Both the position numbers and the translations under genes were made by a program. Positions 24,015-31,373 of a stretch of DNA of 64,000 nucleotides are shown piece after piece (position 1 is the stretch's first letter; the number at the start of each line of letters is the position of its first letter). The notes under the pieces were generated by a model. That model was not told where the DNA came from, ran no database searches, and worked only from the letters and a program-made list of their open reading frames with translations. This DNA is from Spirochaetota bacterium (GTDB lineage Bacteria > Spirochaetota > UBA4802 > JAFGJZ01), in the NCBI GenBank assembly GCA_027858855.1, contig JAQIBV010000007.1, forward strand, positions 62,001 through 126,000. The letters are read 5' to 3'.

Positions 24015-24878
24015 ATGGAATGTGAAATGATACCAGGTGTGCCAAAAAAATTCTTTATTAAATGTTCCCTGTTAAGAGCAATCTCTCTTTTTTGTTATCT
24101 CTTCCTGCTTTGTTTTCTTTTTACGGGTAGCAGAGCTCTTTTGGCAACCAAGGCGAGCGCCAGTATCAATGCCGGTGAACAGAAAAAAGCCGAAAAGGGC
24201 CTTAAAGATAATAAAAAGTTCCTCTATTATATCGACTCATCCATATCCAACACTGGAACCGAAGATGATAAAAAGCTCTATACTCGTGCCATCAAACATG
24301 ATATCGTAGCTCGTTTTTACTACTTAAGATTCTCCTTTTCCAGCTCTTTCGCTCAGATACGTACAGCCCAACAGTTGCTGATTGAGCTTTACCAGTCAAA
24401 CATTGATGCTGAAATTGCTCAGGCCATGGATTATCTGAATGATGTTGCTCCCGATGTTGTGCATTCCCGTGATCCACGAGCTAGGCTCTATTTGCGACTT
24501 GCCTATCGCAATGCCGAGCACGCGCGTATTTATAAAAACATGTCCGATCACTATAAACCGACTCTTTTTTCAATGCGCCTTTATAAATATGTTCAAGCAA
24601 TGAAGAAGGCCAAGGAGGCTAAGCGCTATGCGGTTTGCGCCATGTTACAGCTTCGATTGAAGGATAAGCACCATCTAGAACGCACTTATCAGAGTTTTGA
24701 TGATATTGTACAGCTGGTAAACGAAAATGTCGAATCTGATTTAAAGGATAAATCACTCCATTTCCATACCGATTCGTATTATAAATTCATCGAGCAGAGT
24801 CTCTATAAACAGGTCTGGGACGAGCCGGATCTTGAAACCTTTGATCCTTTTCAAAAATATCTTGAACTTACTGATTAA
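24015..24878 (+). CDS. Exported or membrane-anchored helical protein, hypothetical
   Basis: A 287-residue protein with a hydrophobic segment at about residues 18-42, then a mostly alpha-helical, charged, Tyr/Lys/Ala-rich domain (for example KKAKEAKRYAVCAMLQLRLK). A GGGAA motif lies 11 nt upstream of ATG 24015; ATG 24027 is an alternative. I do not recognise the family. The helical pattern and lengths resemble the exported protein at 28060-28785, so the two may be distant paralogues. It sits at the head of the transglycosylase gene group, 96 nt upstream, and may function in the same envelope process. Confidence 0.6.
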   Translation: MECEMIPGVPKKFFIKCSLLRAISLFCYLFLLCFLFTGSRALLATKASASINAGEQKKAEKGLKDNKKFLYYIDSSISNTGTEDDKKLYTRAIKHDIVARFYYLRFSFSSSFAQIRTAQQLLIELYQSNIDAEIAQAMDYLNDVAPDVVHSRDPRARLYLRLAYRNAEHARIYKNMSDHYKPTLFSMRLYKYVQAMKKAKEAKRYAVCAMLQLRLKDKHHLERTYQSFDDIVQLVNENVESDLKDKSLHFHTDSYYKFIEQSLYKQVWDEPDLETFDPFQKYLELTD

Positions 24879-24974
24879 ATACAGGATTATTGAAGCGAAT
24901 CGGCTCAAATTTACTCAAATCATAATCTTGTAGAAGTTTTTGCTGAAAAACCATATTTTAGGGAATTATTTTTG

Positions 24975-27260
24975 ATGATGAAAATGTTTACTACTGCGAA
25001 AAAATCTTTAATCAATGTTTTCTGTCTTATTACTGTTCTGCTTGTTACCTGCTCTCCTGAGGCCGCTGGCACTAATCTGACGGGACTTCGTTTCAGTAAC
25101 AGCTCTTCACAGATAATTAAGGAACTTTCTAACCGGCAGAAGTTAAATCCGGCAGAGAGCTTTCTTCTCGCAGAGACCTATTATAATGAAGGCGATTATA
25201 AAAAAGCTCTATTCAATTATGCAGGCGCCGCTTTTATTAACCGTGAACCAGGTGATCTCAAGCTGTATGCCCAGCCTATACACTCCTATCTTGGCCGTTC
25301 GTTTTTTCGCTCCGACTATTTTGATGCTGCATCGTTCAGAATCGCATCCATATTTTACAAATATAAAGAGTATGATTATGTTGTAAAATTCTGTGATTAC
25401 GTTTCAAAAGATGACCCGGCGCTGTTCTTTGAAGCTGTAAAACAGGCTATGGCGGCCTATTCGCAGCTTGAAGAGTACTCTCAGGCGCTTGAATACTCGG
25501 AAAAAATTGATACAGTTGTGTATAATAACGATTTTCACAAAATAATTCAGATACAGCGAGCATCGCTTTACAGTAAAACTATGGATTATGGTATGGCCAA
25601 AGATCTTTACTTGTCTGTTATAAAAGATAACAGCTTCTCTTGGCATGCACACACCTCGGCAATGCAGCTCAGCTCTCTTTTTACGTCAAACCAGATAACT
25701 CTGACAGATGAAGATCGGGCGATTATTGTACCGCCTCTTGTTGATTCAAAAAAAATCAAGGAGGCGGAGGAGGTTGTCGCTACATCTTCTGATTCTTTCG
25801 AAATAGACTATTCCCGAATGTTAATTCATCTTCACAGAAAGCAGACTTCAAAGGCTCGTGAAATTCGCCAGAAATATCAAAAGCAGAAACCGCTCTATGC
25901 ACGCATGCTTCTTGGTGAGGCCGATTTTCTCTGGTCAGGTAATAGGGCAGGGGCTGTTCAACTTTATCGACAGTTGATAGAGCTTAATCAGGAGAGTGAA
26001 CGTGAATTTGCACGGGTTTGCAGGTATCTGTACCAGCGAAAACGGTCACAGGCCTTTGACTATTTGCGACGTTACCGGTTAAAATATCCGGATACCAAAA
26101 ACAGCCAACAGTTTGAGTGGTACCAGGCTCGTCTGCAAATTCTTGACGGAAACTTAAATGCGGCGCTGCCTTTATTAAAATCAATAGTTTCTGATAAAAC
26201 ACATCAGTATTATGGAAATGGTGCCTGCTGGCTTTATCACTACTACCGTGTTAATGATACAAAAATGGCTTTGAGCTATTTTAAACAAGCTGTTACGTAC
26301 AGTCCTGATTCCTGGTATGTCTGGATACTGGCTGACCAGCTGAAAAATAACTACAATGTTCAGAAGCTAAATGATCAGTTTGCAACTGCTATTGCAGAAA
26401 AAGACTATGAGTCTGCCCATTTCGCCCATTTTATGCTCTATCTGTTACAAAAAGACGGCGTCTTAAAAGATCAGCGACTGGCTACACTTAAAAGCGCATT
26501 TCTGTATCCGCATACTGACCTTGATGATTATCTGACGACACCTCATGAGAGTATCTTCGTTGGTTTGCTGAGTACCTATTTTGATGCCGGATTCAGTGAT
26601 GGAATCAGTTCACTGCTTCACTACATGGACGAGACTGAAGAGAACCGTAAACTTAAGTATTTGATGCTGTCACGTTTAGGTGAGATCTATTCGCACTCTC
26701 ACTATGCTTTTCTTGGGACAATCCGTCTGCTTCGTGAATTTGAAATTGGTGAAGATATCACCCTGCTTGATGATTCGCTGGTTAAACGACTCTTTCCAAG
26801 GCCCTATTCTGAAATTGTTGCTGCTGTTTCAAAAAAATATCCGTCTGTTTTGCCGCATCAGATATATTCGGTCATGAAGTCTGAATCTGCATTCAGGCAC
26901 GATGCGGTCTCTTTCGTGGGAGCTTCTGGTTTGATGCAGGTGATGCCGGCAACAGGTCGTGGAATTGCGAATTCCTTGAAATTGAAGGAGTATGATCTGA
27001 GAGACCCACGGGTCTCAATTCTTTTCGGCTTTTATTATATGAACTGGCTCTCGGGACTCTATAATGGGGAGTTCGATCAGATGTTAGGTGGTTATAATGC
27101 CGGCCCCGGGAATATGAATAAGTGGAGAAAACGTTTTGATGTAACGGATAAGATCCCCTTTGCCGAACAGGTTCCTTTTGATGAAACAAGATTCTATATG
27201 TTTAAAACCCAGAAATATTTTATACAGTATAACACTGTTTATGGAGTAACGAATGAGTAG
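24975..27260 (+). CDS. Lytic transglycosylase lipoprotein with helical-repeat domain (Slt70-like)
   Basis: The 761-residue protein has a lipobox-type signal (LITVLLVTC), a long TPR-like superhelix (about 50-600), and a C-terminal SLT domain. That domain carries the catalytic glutamate at about position 637 in SVMKSESAFRHDAVS, the GLMQVMPATG motif and the GGYNAGPGN motif, all diagnostic for family 1 lytic transglycosylases. These cleave peptidoglycan glycan strands to 1,6-anhydro ends. The layout resembles soluble Slt70, with a membrane anchor added. The ATG at 24975 follows AGGGA; neighbouring ATGs at 24978 and 24984 are alternatives. The 3' end overlaps the HEAT gene by 8 nt, implying coupled translation. 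Confidence 0.93.
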   Translation: MMKMFTTAKKSLINVFCLITVLLVTCSPEAAGTNLTGLRFSNSSSQIIKELSNRQKLNPAESFLLAETYYNEGDYKKALFNYAGAAFINREPGDLKLYAQPIHSYLGRSFFRSDYFDAASFRIASIFYKYKEYDYVVKFCDYVSKDDPALFFEAVKQAMAAYSQLEEYSQALEYSEKIDTVVYNNDFHKIIQIQRASLYSKTMDYGMAKDLYLSVIKDNSFSWHAHTSAMQLSSLFTSNQITLTDEDRAIIVPPLVDSKKIKEAEEVVATSSDSFEIDYSRMLIHLHRKQTSKAREIRQKYQKQKPLYARMLLGEADFLWSGNRAGAVQLYRQLIELNQESEREFARVCRYLYQRKRSQAFDYLRRYRLKYPDTKNSQQFEWYQARLQILDGNLNAALPLLKSIVSDKTHQYYGNGACWLYHYYRVNDTKMALSYFKQAVTYSPDSWYVWILADQLKNNYNVQKLNDQFATAIAEKDYESAHFAHFMLYLLQKDGVLKDQRLATLKSAFLYPHTDLDDYLTTPHESIFVGLLSTYFDAGFSDGISSLLHYMDETEENRKLKYLMLSRLGEIYSHSHYAFLGTIRLLREFEIGEDITLLDDSLVKRLFPRPYSEIVAAVSKKYPSVLPHQIYSVMKSESAFRHDAVSFVGASGLMQVMPATGRGIANSLKLKEYDLRDPRVSILFGFYYMNWLSGLYNGEFDQMLGGYNAGPGNMNKWRKRFDVTDKIPFAEQVPFDETRFYMFKTQKYFIQYNTVYGVTNE

Positions 27261-28059: not shown

Positions 28060-28785
28060 TTATTTGGCTTTTTCTTTTGAGATATAGACTTTACTGTCAT
28101 TGTCAGAAATTATTTTTTCATAACGTTCGCGAATTTCAACTCGACGTTTCTCTTTTGCGTCGTTCAGACATTTTTCTCTATCAAATCTTAGTTTGCGGCA
28201 CTCATTTACAGTCTCTTCGGGCAGGTCATCCGCTTCGATGTACATATATGTAAGCATTCTGTCTTTAGAAATGCGGTAAGATTCGATAGCCTGTATCGGA
28301 CGGGTACGTACAAAGTAGTCGTTTGCCTGTAATATTGCAGCAGTCGACTGTGACATCATCTTTTCTTTTGTTTCGTTGTTTTTTTTGCCCCGAAGTGATT
28401 TTTTTATTCTTACCCGGACATCTCTCTCAATAAGCTCTTTTTGCATCGCCTCTGAATCTTCCTTGTATATCTTCGCAATATTCATTGCCGTTTCGCGAAT
28501 TTCAAGTTCGTTTTCTTCGAATTGTTTTGCAGATCTCTCATATTCACGTGAAAAATAGAGCGAGGAGGCTTCTGAATAGCTTTGAACAAGTTTATCGAAT
28601 TCGGCATCTCCGCCACCGTAGTTAAAAATAGCAGCTGTTAAAAGTTTAATGTTTCTGAAGTTTTCATAGCTTAAGCGTTTTATAACTGCTTTGGGGTCAT
28701 GATCAGGGCCATCAACTGCCTGGGCAAAAGCTAAAAATGATAGCGTAAATGCCAAAAAAACTGAGATAACGAATCCTTTCTTCAT
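28060..28785 (-). CDS. Exported alpha-helical protein, hypothetical
   Basis: The 241-residue protein has a clear signal peptide (MKKGFVISVFLAFTLSFLAF, cleavage after AQA) and a charged, coiled-coil-like mature part (AKQFEENELEIRETAMNIAK, EKMMSQSTAAILQANDYFV). TTAAGGAG precedes the ATG. It is convergent with the HEAT gene across 21 nt. The arrangement of helices and the Tyr-rich segments resemble the protein at 24015-24878, suggesting a spirochaete-type periplasmic helical family. No catalytic motif is seen and I do not recognise a named function. Confidence 0.65.
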   Translation of the reverse strand: MKKGFVISVFLAFTLSFLAFAQAVDGPDHDPKAVIKRLSYENFRNIKLLTAAIFNYGGGDAEFDKLVQSYSEASSLYFSREYERSAKQFEENELEIRETAMNIAKIYKEDSEAMQKELIERDVRVRIKKSLRGKKNNETKEKMMSQSTAAILQANDYFVRTRPIQAIESYRISKDRMLTYMYIEADDLPEETVNECRKLRFDREKCLNDAKEKRRVEIRERYEKIISDNDSKVYISKEKAK

Positions 28786-28925: not shown

Positions 28926-29030
28926 GATACATAGCGGGAAAATCCATTTCAGTGTCACATAGAGAATGGGTATATATATTTAAAAAAGTCAAGGAAAATT
29001 AGTATCTGTTATATCTTATGGAGGATTCAG

Positions 29031-29606
29031 ATGAGAAAAGTCTTTCCCGTCGTTATTTTTATAATTACGGTTGCAACATTCCTTATAGCTTCTGCAACGC
29101 CTGTCTCACAGGAGGAGAAAACTGTCAGAATGTCCATTATTATGGTTGCCAACAAATGCGTTGGAATTGGCTATCTGTTTAACGGCACAACTCCAAAGGG
29201 ATTTGATAATACGGGTTTTGTTCTTTATGTTTATTATAAAAATGGTATAGAGCTTCCCCGAACTGTTCTTTCAATGTTCAGAGCCGGTGAATATGTTGAT
29301 CCGAAAAACGCTAAACCGGGAGACCTGCTCTTTTTTCTCGAAGATCCGGTCGATACCTCTTCTATAAATCATGTTGGCCTCTATCTTGGTAAAGATAAGT
29401 TCATTCACATGCCTGGGGAGGGCTCTTATGTTCGGATCGATCGTCTGGTAAAAGATTCAAAGTGGAGCGCCCGTTTTGCCGGTGTTAAATCATATGCCAA
29501 GTTATTTTCATCATCATCTTCTTCATCGAAGGATTCCGAGCCTGTAACCAAACAGACTGTTTATGGTTCTTCGAGTGTTGAGTTTGAGACATCAGAGATG
29601 GAGTAG
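29031..29606 (+). CDS. NlpC/P60-fold exported protein lacking the catalytic cysteine
   Basis: The 191-residue protein has a signal sequence (VVIFIITVATFLIASA) and an NlpC/P60 domain at about residues 40-165. The family active site is normally D-C-S-G-hydrophobic in the first helix; here it reads GFDNTGFVLYVY, with N60 in place of cysteine. The later histidines are kept: H114 in INHVGLYLG and H126 in FIHMPGEG. The only nearby cysteine (VANKCVGIGY) is about 15 residues earlier and not at the catalytic place. The fold normally cuts peptidoglycan peptides; this member is probably a non-catalytic binder. The tail is Ser-rich (SSSSSSSKDSE). TGGAGG precedes the ATG. Confidence 0.85.
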   Translation: MRKVFPVVIFIITVATFLIASATPVSQEEKTVRMSIIMVANKCVGIGYLFNGTTPKGFDNTGFVLYVYYKNGIELPRTVLSMFRAGEYVDPKNAKPGDLLFFLEDPVDTSSINHVGLYLGKDKFIHMPGEGSYVRIDRLVKDSKWSARFAGVKSYAKLFSSSSSSSKDSEPVTKQTVYGSSSVEFETSEME

Positions 29607-29612
29607 TTCTGT

Positions 29613-31373
29613 TTAGAGTATACGGGTGATAAGTATTGACAGATCGTCTTCGGGTTCACTGTTTCCGGTGTAGTCATATATTTTCTGAAGTACAAATTCA
29701 GAAAGATCATCCGGTGAGAGTTCGCAGTTCTCTTTCAGTATTTCCATCAACTGCGGTTTGCCCAGAAAATTACCCTTTTTATCCTTCGACTCGACAATAC
29801 CGTCTGTATAAAGAATGAGTATGTCTCCTGGGTGTATCGGGCATGAGCTCGATACATACTCCTCCTCAGGAAACATGCCGACTATTGGGTTTAATGAACA
29901 TAATTCGGTATATGTGCCGTCTTTATGTAATAGTAGTACTTCGTTATGACCACCGTTTGAGTATATCAGCTCATTGATAGAAAGATCGATTATACCATAA
30001 AAGGCTGTTAGAAACATTCCTGCACCACCTACAGTTTTTAAAAGAGATGCGTTAATCTCATCAAGAACATAAAAAGGTGGGTTATGAGGTTTTGCAAGGT
30101 TAGCGAATGACATTTTCGCCATCGTTGTAATCAGGGCTGCAGAAATTCCGTGGCCACTGACATCCACAATTGCAATGCCCATAGAGTTGTCTGTAAATGG
30201 GAAAACATCATAATAGTCACCCCCCAGGTTCTGCATTGGGTGATATCGCCCTCCAATTTCGAAATACTCCGATTTCGGGAAGGTTCGGGGAATAATTATC
30301 TGTTGAACGGAACGAGCCATGAACAATTCACGTTCAAATGTCATATTTTTGATGTTAAGCTCATCATTTGCATGTTTTAACTGACGGGTTCGGTTATCAA
30401 CGAGATTCTCTAGTTCCTGATTAAGGTAGATGTTTTCGAATGCAATAGAGACATTTGTACAGAATATGTCTATCATATCACGTTCCCACTCCTGAAGAGC
30501 CTCGTTACGCTCAAGGTAGATGATGTTTTCACTGTTGTTTTGTGTCTTAAAAAATGCTATATAGTGGTATTCGTCATAAATATTTCGTTTTTCAGCGAAT
30601 GCGCGAGTTAACAGTTCATACTGTTTTGGCTCAAGAACCTCTTCAACCCTTGTGTTAATAGTGCTTTCACCGTATTTGCCGGTTGCGGCAAGTATAACCG
30701 GGTGGCCGTTTCTGTTGATTGCTGTTAATCCTGATGTTTGACAGTAGAAGGCATTGTCACTGTAACGCAATATTGATGTGAACTGGTCAAGAATACCGGC
30801 AACAAAATTCTGCAGAGAACGGACTTCAAAGATATGTGCAGTCGCTTCGATTATTCTTTCGAGGGCTTTCTTGTTCTTTTCAATTGTTATGATGTCACGG
30901 TATGAACGGAGCGCAGTAATTACAGTGCTGTAAAGACGTTCAGTTGTAAGCTCTGTCTTTGATTTGTAGTCATTGATGTCATATTCAACAATGACCCTCT
31001 TTTCTGGAGCCTGACCTGGTTGGCCGGTGCGAAGAATTATGCGTATAAGATTGTTTTTTATATCTTCGCGGATATAACGTGTCAGAAGAAGACCAGAGTT
31101 TTCCTGTTCCATGACAACATCAAGGAGGATAACCGCAATATCATCACGTTCCAGTAAAATTGATTTGGCTTCAGCTTCTGAAAATGCACTTATAAATTCA
31201 AGCTTTCTTCCCGAAAATTCCAGGTCAGATAGAACAAGCTTGGTGACTTTGTGCACATCCTGCTCGTCATCAACTATCAGTATTTTCCATGTTTCCCGGA
31301 TGCGGGAGTCTTGATTTTCATCGCATGTCTCTGCAAAAAAGATCAGATCTTCAGTGTCTTGCTTCGTCCCCAG
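29613..31373 (-). CDS. Receiver-DUF3369-PP2C (SpoIIE-type) phosphatase regulator, apparent CTG start
   Basis: The domain order is a CheY-like receiver (phospho-acceptor D85 in VILLDVVME), a DUF3369 region (LRTGQPGQAPE, DINDYKSKTELT), a coiled linker, and a C-terminal PP2C with GGDYYDVF, IVDVSGHGISAAL, YSNGGHNEV, YTDGIVESKD and DDLSIL. The only usual start, GTG 31256, would delete the receiver's first strand and acidic pair. Upstream the same frame encodes the expected EDLIFFAET and WKILIVDDEQDVH, back to CTG 31373 with AAAGAGG 6 nt before it. No in-frame ATG, GTG or TTG lies between. I therefore annotate CTG, 586 residues. It is an aspartate-switched Ser/Thr phosphatase. Convergent with the NlpC/P60 gene. 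Confidence 0.88.
   Translation of the reverse strand: MGTKQDTEDLIFFAETCDENQDSRIRETWKILIVDDEQDVHKVTKLVLSDLEFSGRKLEFISAFSEAEAKSILLERDDIAVILLDVVMEQENSGLLLTRYIREDIKNNLIRIILRTGQPGQAPEKRVIVEYDINDYKSKTELTTERLYSTVITALRSYRDIITIEKNKKALERIIEATAHIFEVRSLQNFVAGILDQFTSILRYSDNAFYCQTSGLTAINRNGHPVILAATGKYGESTINTRVEEVLEPKQYELLTRAFAEKRNIYDEYHYIAFFKTQNNSENIIYLERNEALQEWERDMIDIFCTNVSIAFENIYLNQELENLVDNRTRQLKHANDELNIKNMTFERELFMARSVQQIIIPRTFPKSEYFEIGGRYHPMQNLGGDYYDVFPFTDNSMGIAIVDVSGHGISAALITTMAKMSFANLAKPHNPPFYVLDEINASLLKTVGGAGMFLTAFYGIIDLSINELIYSNGGHNEVLLLHKDGTYTELCSLNPIVGMFPEEEYVSSSCPIHPGDILILYTDGIVESKDKKGNFLGKPQLMEILKENCELSPDDLSEFVLQKIYDYTGNSEPEDDLSILITRIL

Follow-up and report, generated by a model that had tools for sequence, protein, structure and literature searches.

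The window, a 64,000-nucleotide stretch of contig JAQIBV010000007.1 from a member of the Spirochaetota, contains an intact 576-base open reading frame that runs without an internal stop and encodes a protein of 191 residues (Table 1). This gene is divergent from the one at 28060–28785 (− strand) and convergent with the phosphatase gene at 29613–31256 (− strand), which lies six bases past its end. From the orientation of these neighbours, the gene is probably transcribed alone. A sequence scan, given no weight here, returned 6 promoter-like sites, versus 2.5 in shuffles, and no terminators. An SLT lytic transglycosylase gene (24972–27260) lies ∼1.8 kb upstream. The product of 28060–28785 is itself probably exported and matches nothing in Pfam or NCBIfam at E up to 0.001. 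Also upstream, 24015–24878 (+ strand) encodes a protein that matches a leptospiral adhesin family of surface proteins (NCBIfam NF047447, Lepto_OmpL37; 2.8e-51, with 174.2 bits where the cut-off is 150) and has no Pfam match at E up to 0.001.

Table 1. Features of the Asn60 gene and its product, in window coordinates
Feature	Positions	Strand	Basis
Gene for a probably exported, putative NlpC/P60 pseudo-endopeptidase, 191 aa	29031–29606	+	Open frame; Pfam NLPC_P60; AlphaFold2 model
GGAGGA, probable ribosome-binding site	29020–29025	+	Sequence reading
NlpC/P60 domain, residues 31–156	29121–29498	+	Pfam; congener comparison; AlphaFold2
Cys43, sole Cys of the window protein, present in the orthologue too; Tyr or His in 45/54 homologues	29157–29159	+	Alignment
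AAT, Asn60, replaces the nucleophilic Cys	29208–29210	+	Sequence; Cys in all 54 homologues aligned besides the gene and its orthologue
ACG, Thr61 (Ala in the orthologue), replaces Ser of DCSG	29211–29213	+	Ser in 54/54 homologues
His114, catalytic-type, kept; preceded by Asn113, where homologues have Ser (51) or Thr (3)	29370–29372	+	Alignment
His126, third triad residue, kept; followed by Met127, where homologues have Ala (44) or Ser (10)	29406–29408	+	Alignment
Ser-rich variable linker (residues 157–182) and C-terminal peptide VEFETSEME / VQFETSDM	29499–29603	+	Orthologue comparison

The encoded protein matches Pfam NLPC_P60 (PF00877) with an E-value of 2.4e-20 and a score of 72.9 bits, where the cut-off is 23, over residues 47–152 and positions 3–103 of the 105-position profile. 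This is the sole Pfam match at E up to 0.001; a degenerate LytM/M23 domain was not found. The N-terminus is charged and hydrophobic, which suggests that the protein is probably exported. Its active-site motif reads F58-D59-N60-T61-G62. When PDB chains were searched with phmmer, 39 distinct sequences were recovered at E up to 0.001, mostly named as NlpC/P60 proteins or cell-wall hydrolases, and the two alignments printed place D-N-T-G opposite D-C-S-G. Matches among the PHROGs are to phage tail proteins with an NlpC/P60 domain. An AlphaFold2 model, for which the input alignment consisted of 36 viral-contig relatives, has a mean pLDDT of 83.6; ten-residue blocks across residues 31–160 score 86–98, and the N-terminus and tail score low. 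Residue 60 opens the central helix of this model, and residues 114 and 126 lie in strands. Structural comparison ranks NlpC/P60 peptidases highest (7cfl; Z 21.5, rmsd 1.6, 125 aligned). The model thus confidently predicts a canonical papain-like NlpC/P60 fold for the Asn60 protein.

The genus is represented by two genomes, both drafts (97 and 89% complete). The congener holds a syntenic, full-length orthologue that is 69% identical overall and has AAT at the same codon. The earlier note had described an NlpC/P60 fold with asparagine in place of the catalytic cysteine, and this description is confirmed by the Pfam match, the AAT codon of the gene and the AAT codon of the orthologue. Aligning homologues to see whether the asparagine is conserved, as that note proposed, places Asn in the orthologue of the sole congener examined. 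Both downstream histidines were also said to be kept, and the columns of H114 and H126 are indeed His in all 54 aligned Cys-bearing homologues. Compared with an active NlpC/P60 enzyme, the pair of Asn proteins (hereafter the Asn pair) lacks the Cys nucleophile of DCSG in both species and has the His-His; Tyr48, Asp59 and Arg77 are retained along with His114 and His126.

The substitution is accompanied by other changes in the conserved core. At 36 near-invariant columns, defined by one residue reaching at least 90% among 53 Cys homologues, each Asn protein carries seven changes (G51N, C60N, S61T/A, Q82M, S113N, K132S/A and Y144K/R), against a median of one and a maximum of five in the Cys homologues (n = 53). 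The maximum belongs to the paralogue pair L003/L035, which retains the Cys, the Ser and both His and has a mean identity to the homologue set of 0.42, versus 0.40 for the Asn pair. Q82M occurs in this Cys-bearing pair too and is thus not tied to the loss of the cysteine. Further changes common to the Asn pair are A127M, in a column that is A or S in 54/54 homologues, and two to three extra residues inserted ahead of H114. RipA offers a guide to these positions: Ser384 and Gln431, neighbours of Cys383 and His432, are described as contacting the muropeptide, and Asp382 as contacting gamma-D-Glu (PMC6628586). Asp59 occupies the same place in the motif as Asp382, and T/A61 and N113 correspond to Ser384 and Gln431; all three correspondences are by adjacency alone. 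We read this pattern as a cleft that was remodelled rather than stripped of a single residue, with a putative placement of K132 and Y144 in it. S61T/A and S113N lie beside catalytic sites, and the cleft may accordingly take another ligand or dock a protein.

Since the Cys nucleophile is lost, hydrolysis by the family mechanism is very unlikely. Mutating each residue of the RipA triad to Ala is described as suppressing activity (PMC6628586). The protein could still be an enzyme if it used another nucleophile, most plausibly Cys43, or turned the His pair to other chemistry. Cys43 is common to the Asn pair and is the only cysteine of the window protein, and both His are retained; however, two of the 54 homologues (L010 and L100) have Cys43 together with a normal Cys60, showing that its presence does not depend on the loss of Cys60, and the model places residue 43 just past the first domain helix whereas residue 60 begins the central helix. 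We therefore regard a surviving enzyme as improbable. Thr61 was also considered as a substitute nucleophile and was rejected because the orthologue has Ala.

Asparagine at this site is rare. A PF00877 search across 46 genomes of the order gives 61 places, 60 of them readable at the nucleophile site; the 61st is a contig-edge fragment (G028) that stops short of it. Cys occupies 58 of the 60 readable domains, including a weak match with DCVG (G023), and Asn the remaining two, which are the gene and its orthologue. Cys is also present at L112, the one locus read beyond the order, and in 80/80 of the best 80 of 258 confirmed viral-contig relatives, for which the pattern permitted C or N at the nucleophile site. 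This complete domain search was made at the level of the order, and the phylum was covered by a degenerate DNA pattern. The latter matched in 11 of 392 genomes; two are the Asn pair, and the frames in the other nine, judged by eye, do not resemble NlpC/P60. Besides G-x-D-N-x-G, the pattern sets the type of the flanking residue at either end, and Asn forms in other contexts would escape it. With a similar pattern, viral contigs yielded 13 stretches, none of which matched the Asn60 protein (tblastn, 1e-3), and a contig scan of the genomes gave one distant, Cys-bearing relative (L033). The literature titles and abstract openings listed, with few subscription journals covered, contained no Asn-substituted NlpC/P60 protein and no spirochaete case.

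Each genome of the genus has three NlpC/P60 genes detected by PF00877, one with Asn and two with Cys. Homologues restoring Cys had been named in the earlier note as counter-evidence. Cys is found in 54/54 of them; at 31–45% identity, however, they are paralogues or relatives of unresolved standing and not the orthologue at the same locus. Because Cys is present in all other homologues examined, the loss is restricted to this genus among the genomes examined, and the putative pseudo-endopeptidase has so far been found in one genus, of which two genomes were examined.

Phylogenetic trees differ over which active gene gave rise to the Asn gene. The first tree joined the Asn pair to the long-branched paralogues L003/L035, with a long-branch warning. 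Without L003, L035, L111 and L112, the Asn pair instead joined four sequences from family f6 (85/77), and the data did not reject a clade uniting it with L002/L034, the paralogue pair of its own genus (p-AU 0.364). The Asn pair has a long stem branch of 1.78 or 2.24 changes per column.

Identity within the Asn pair is unevenly distributed along the protein. The domain is 82% identical (103/126) and linker residues 157–182 only 27% (7/26), and the C-terminal peptide matches at 6/8 positions. Two pairs of Cys-bearing paralogues from the same genomes are identical at 76/123 and 108/118 positions of the same domain; these values bracket the Asn pair, placing its constraint within the range of Cys-bearing relatives. 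Neighbouring genes compare between the congeners at 83% for the exported protein of 28060–28785, 84% for the response-regulator/SpoIIE phosphatase, 50% for the HEAT protein and 61% for the SLT. Synonymous distances were saturated, and thus undefined, in 9/11 gene pairs, the Asn pair included; the contrast between domain and linker was therefore used in place of a dN/dS ratio. Judged by this contrast, the NlpC/P60 domain of the Asn pair is under selective constraint.

Constraint also bears on the reading that the asparagine is an artefact of base calling or assembly, or the mark of a decaying duplicate. Cys in all other homologues examined and the long stem branch would fit such a history. However, a sequencing error (AAT for TGT), which the earlier note had raised, is excluded by AAT in a full-length syntenic orthologue from a separate genome. 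Moreover, the step from TGT or TGC to AAT takes at least two base changes, and the domain has held its sequence between species where the linker has not. Artefact or decay is thus the most improbable of the readings weighed here.

Relatives of the 28060–28785 protein occur in 44/46 genomes of the order (E up to 0.001), which marks it as conserved though unnamed. Around these relatives, 28 loci outside the genus (L038–L065) were sampled with ∼1.5 kb of flank each. A HEAT match was found in 25 and an SLT match was reached in 6, and within these flanks 0/28 had an NlpC/P60 match to the Asn60 protein and 0/28 the 29613–31256 phosphatase. The envelope gene group proposed in the earlier note is thus borne out only in part: the HEAT gene, 28060–28785 and, where the loci reach, the SLT gene form an order-wide block, but the Asn gene adjoins this block only in this genus and is apparently transcribed apart from it. 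As an argument for the role of the protein, the gene group is weak. Two genomes of the same family (G002 and G003, genus g2; 96 and 66% complete) have no PF00877 match. G003 retains relatives of the OmpL37-like, HEAT and 28060–28785 genes adjoining each other (L048).

We favour the view that the Asn60 protein is a non-cutting NlpC/P60 relative and most likely a non-catalytic peptidoglycan binder, with a probability of about 0.55. On this view, Asn60 replaced the nucleophilic Cys in an NlpC/P60 gene of this lineage and several other conserved residues changed, while the fold, Tyr48, Asp59, Arg77 and both His were retained. The protein would sit outside the cytoplasm, and its old substrate cleft could hold a peptidoglycan stem peptide, or its product, uncut. 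It might then act as a wall binder, anchor or competitor beside the two Cys-bearing paralogues. Of the earlier suggestion of a peptidoglycan-binding pseudoenzyme or regulator, the pseudoenzyme part is well supported by Asn in the congener, the altered conserved sites and the constrained domain; binding or regulation is what we infer beyond these observations. This would be an apparently independent case, outside mycobacteria, of a nucleophile-less NlpC/P60 protein kept by selection, and its Asn-His-His loss pattern differs from the known one. One Asn protein and two Cys paralogues in the same genome also provide a natural comparison of binding and cutting on one fold. The reach is modest because inactive NlpC/P60 proteins are already known and the gene is confined to one genus among the genomes examined.

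Alternatively, the pseudo-domain may regulate autolysins: the degenerate cleft would dock the SLT or the active paralogues and activate, inhibit or localise them. This is the main rival, though less probable than wall binding. DipM is a precedent for an inactive LytM domain as an autolysin regulator, an SLT gene lies nearby, changes in the conserved core go beyond the nucleophile, and a conserved C-terminal peptide follows the variable linker. However, the envelope block is order-wide and the Asn gene was found in this genus only, implying that the SLT is generally independent of the Asn protein, and there is no sign of co-transcription. Somewhat less probable still is a genus-specific wall-growth regulator in which the remodelled cleft and conserved C-terminal peptide would dock and control active autolysins (the SLT or the two paralogues), as inactive LytM domains do in proteobacteria.

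The inactive LytM regulators DipM, EnvC and NlpD may share with the Asn60 protein a role in which an inactive peptidoglycan-peptidase domain regulates autolysins. LytM is a different, metallopeptidase fold. These regulators carry a LytM domain, whereas Pfam shows NLPC_P60 alone here. DipM is described as binding several autolysins through its inactive LytM domain and as stimulating the soluble lytic transglycosylase SdpA and the amidase AmiC; its predicted and mutation-supported interface is the groove around the degenerate site (PMC10336132).

MepS/Spr and other exported NlpC/P60 endopeptidases resemble the Asn60 protein in fold and in the positions of the triad (7v6s, Z 18.5, rmsd 2.2, 122 aligned; 2k1g, Z 16.9, rmsd 2.8, 128 aligned). 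However, MepS/Spr have a Cys nucleophile where Asn stands here, and the NF008096 model scores 49.6 bits against a cut-off of 186. A precedent for a peptidoglycan-binding role is RipD (Rv1566c) of M. tuberculosis, whose NlpC/P60 domain lacks the catalytic residues (Ala83-Ser132-Glu144) and is described as a non-catalytic peptidoglycan binder (PMC12067865). Together with the loss of the cysteine, this precedent favours wall binding over DipM-like docking of autolysins. The folds are alike (RipD structure 4jxb, Z 18.5, rmsd 1.4, 116 aligned; 4lj1 is a second RipD entry), but both His survive in the Asn60 protein. The RipD model NF033743 scores 49.9 bits against a cut-off of 215, so the protein is not a RipD, and its tail differs from the pentapeptide repeat described in the RipD C-terminus (PMC12067865). 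By analogy, the Asn60 protein would be RipD-like in logic, not in family.
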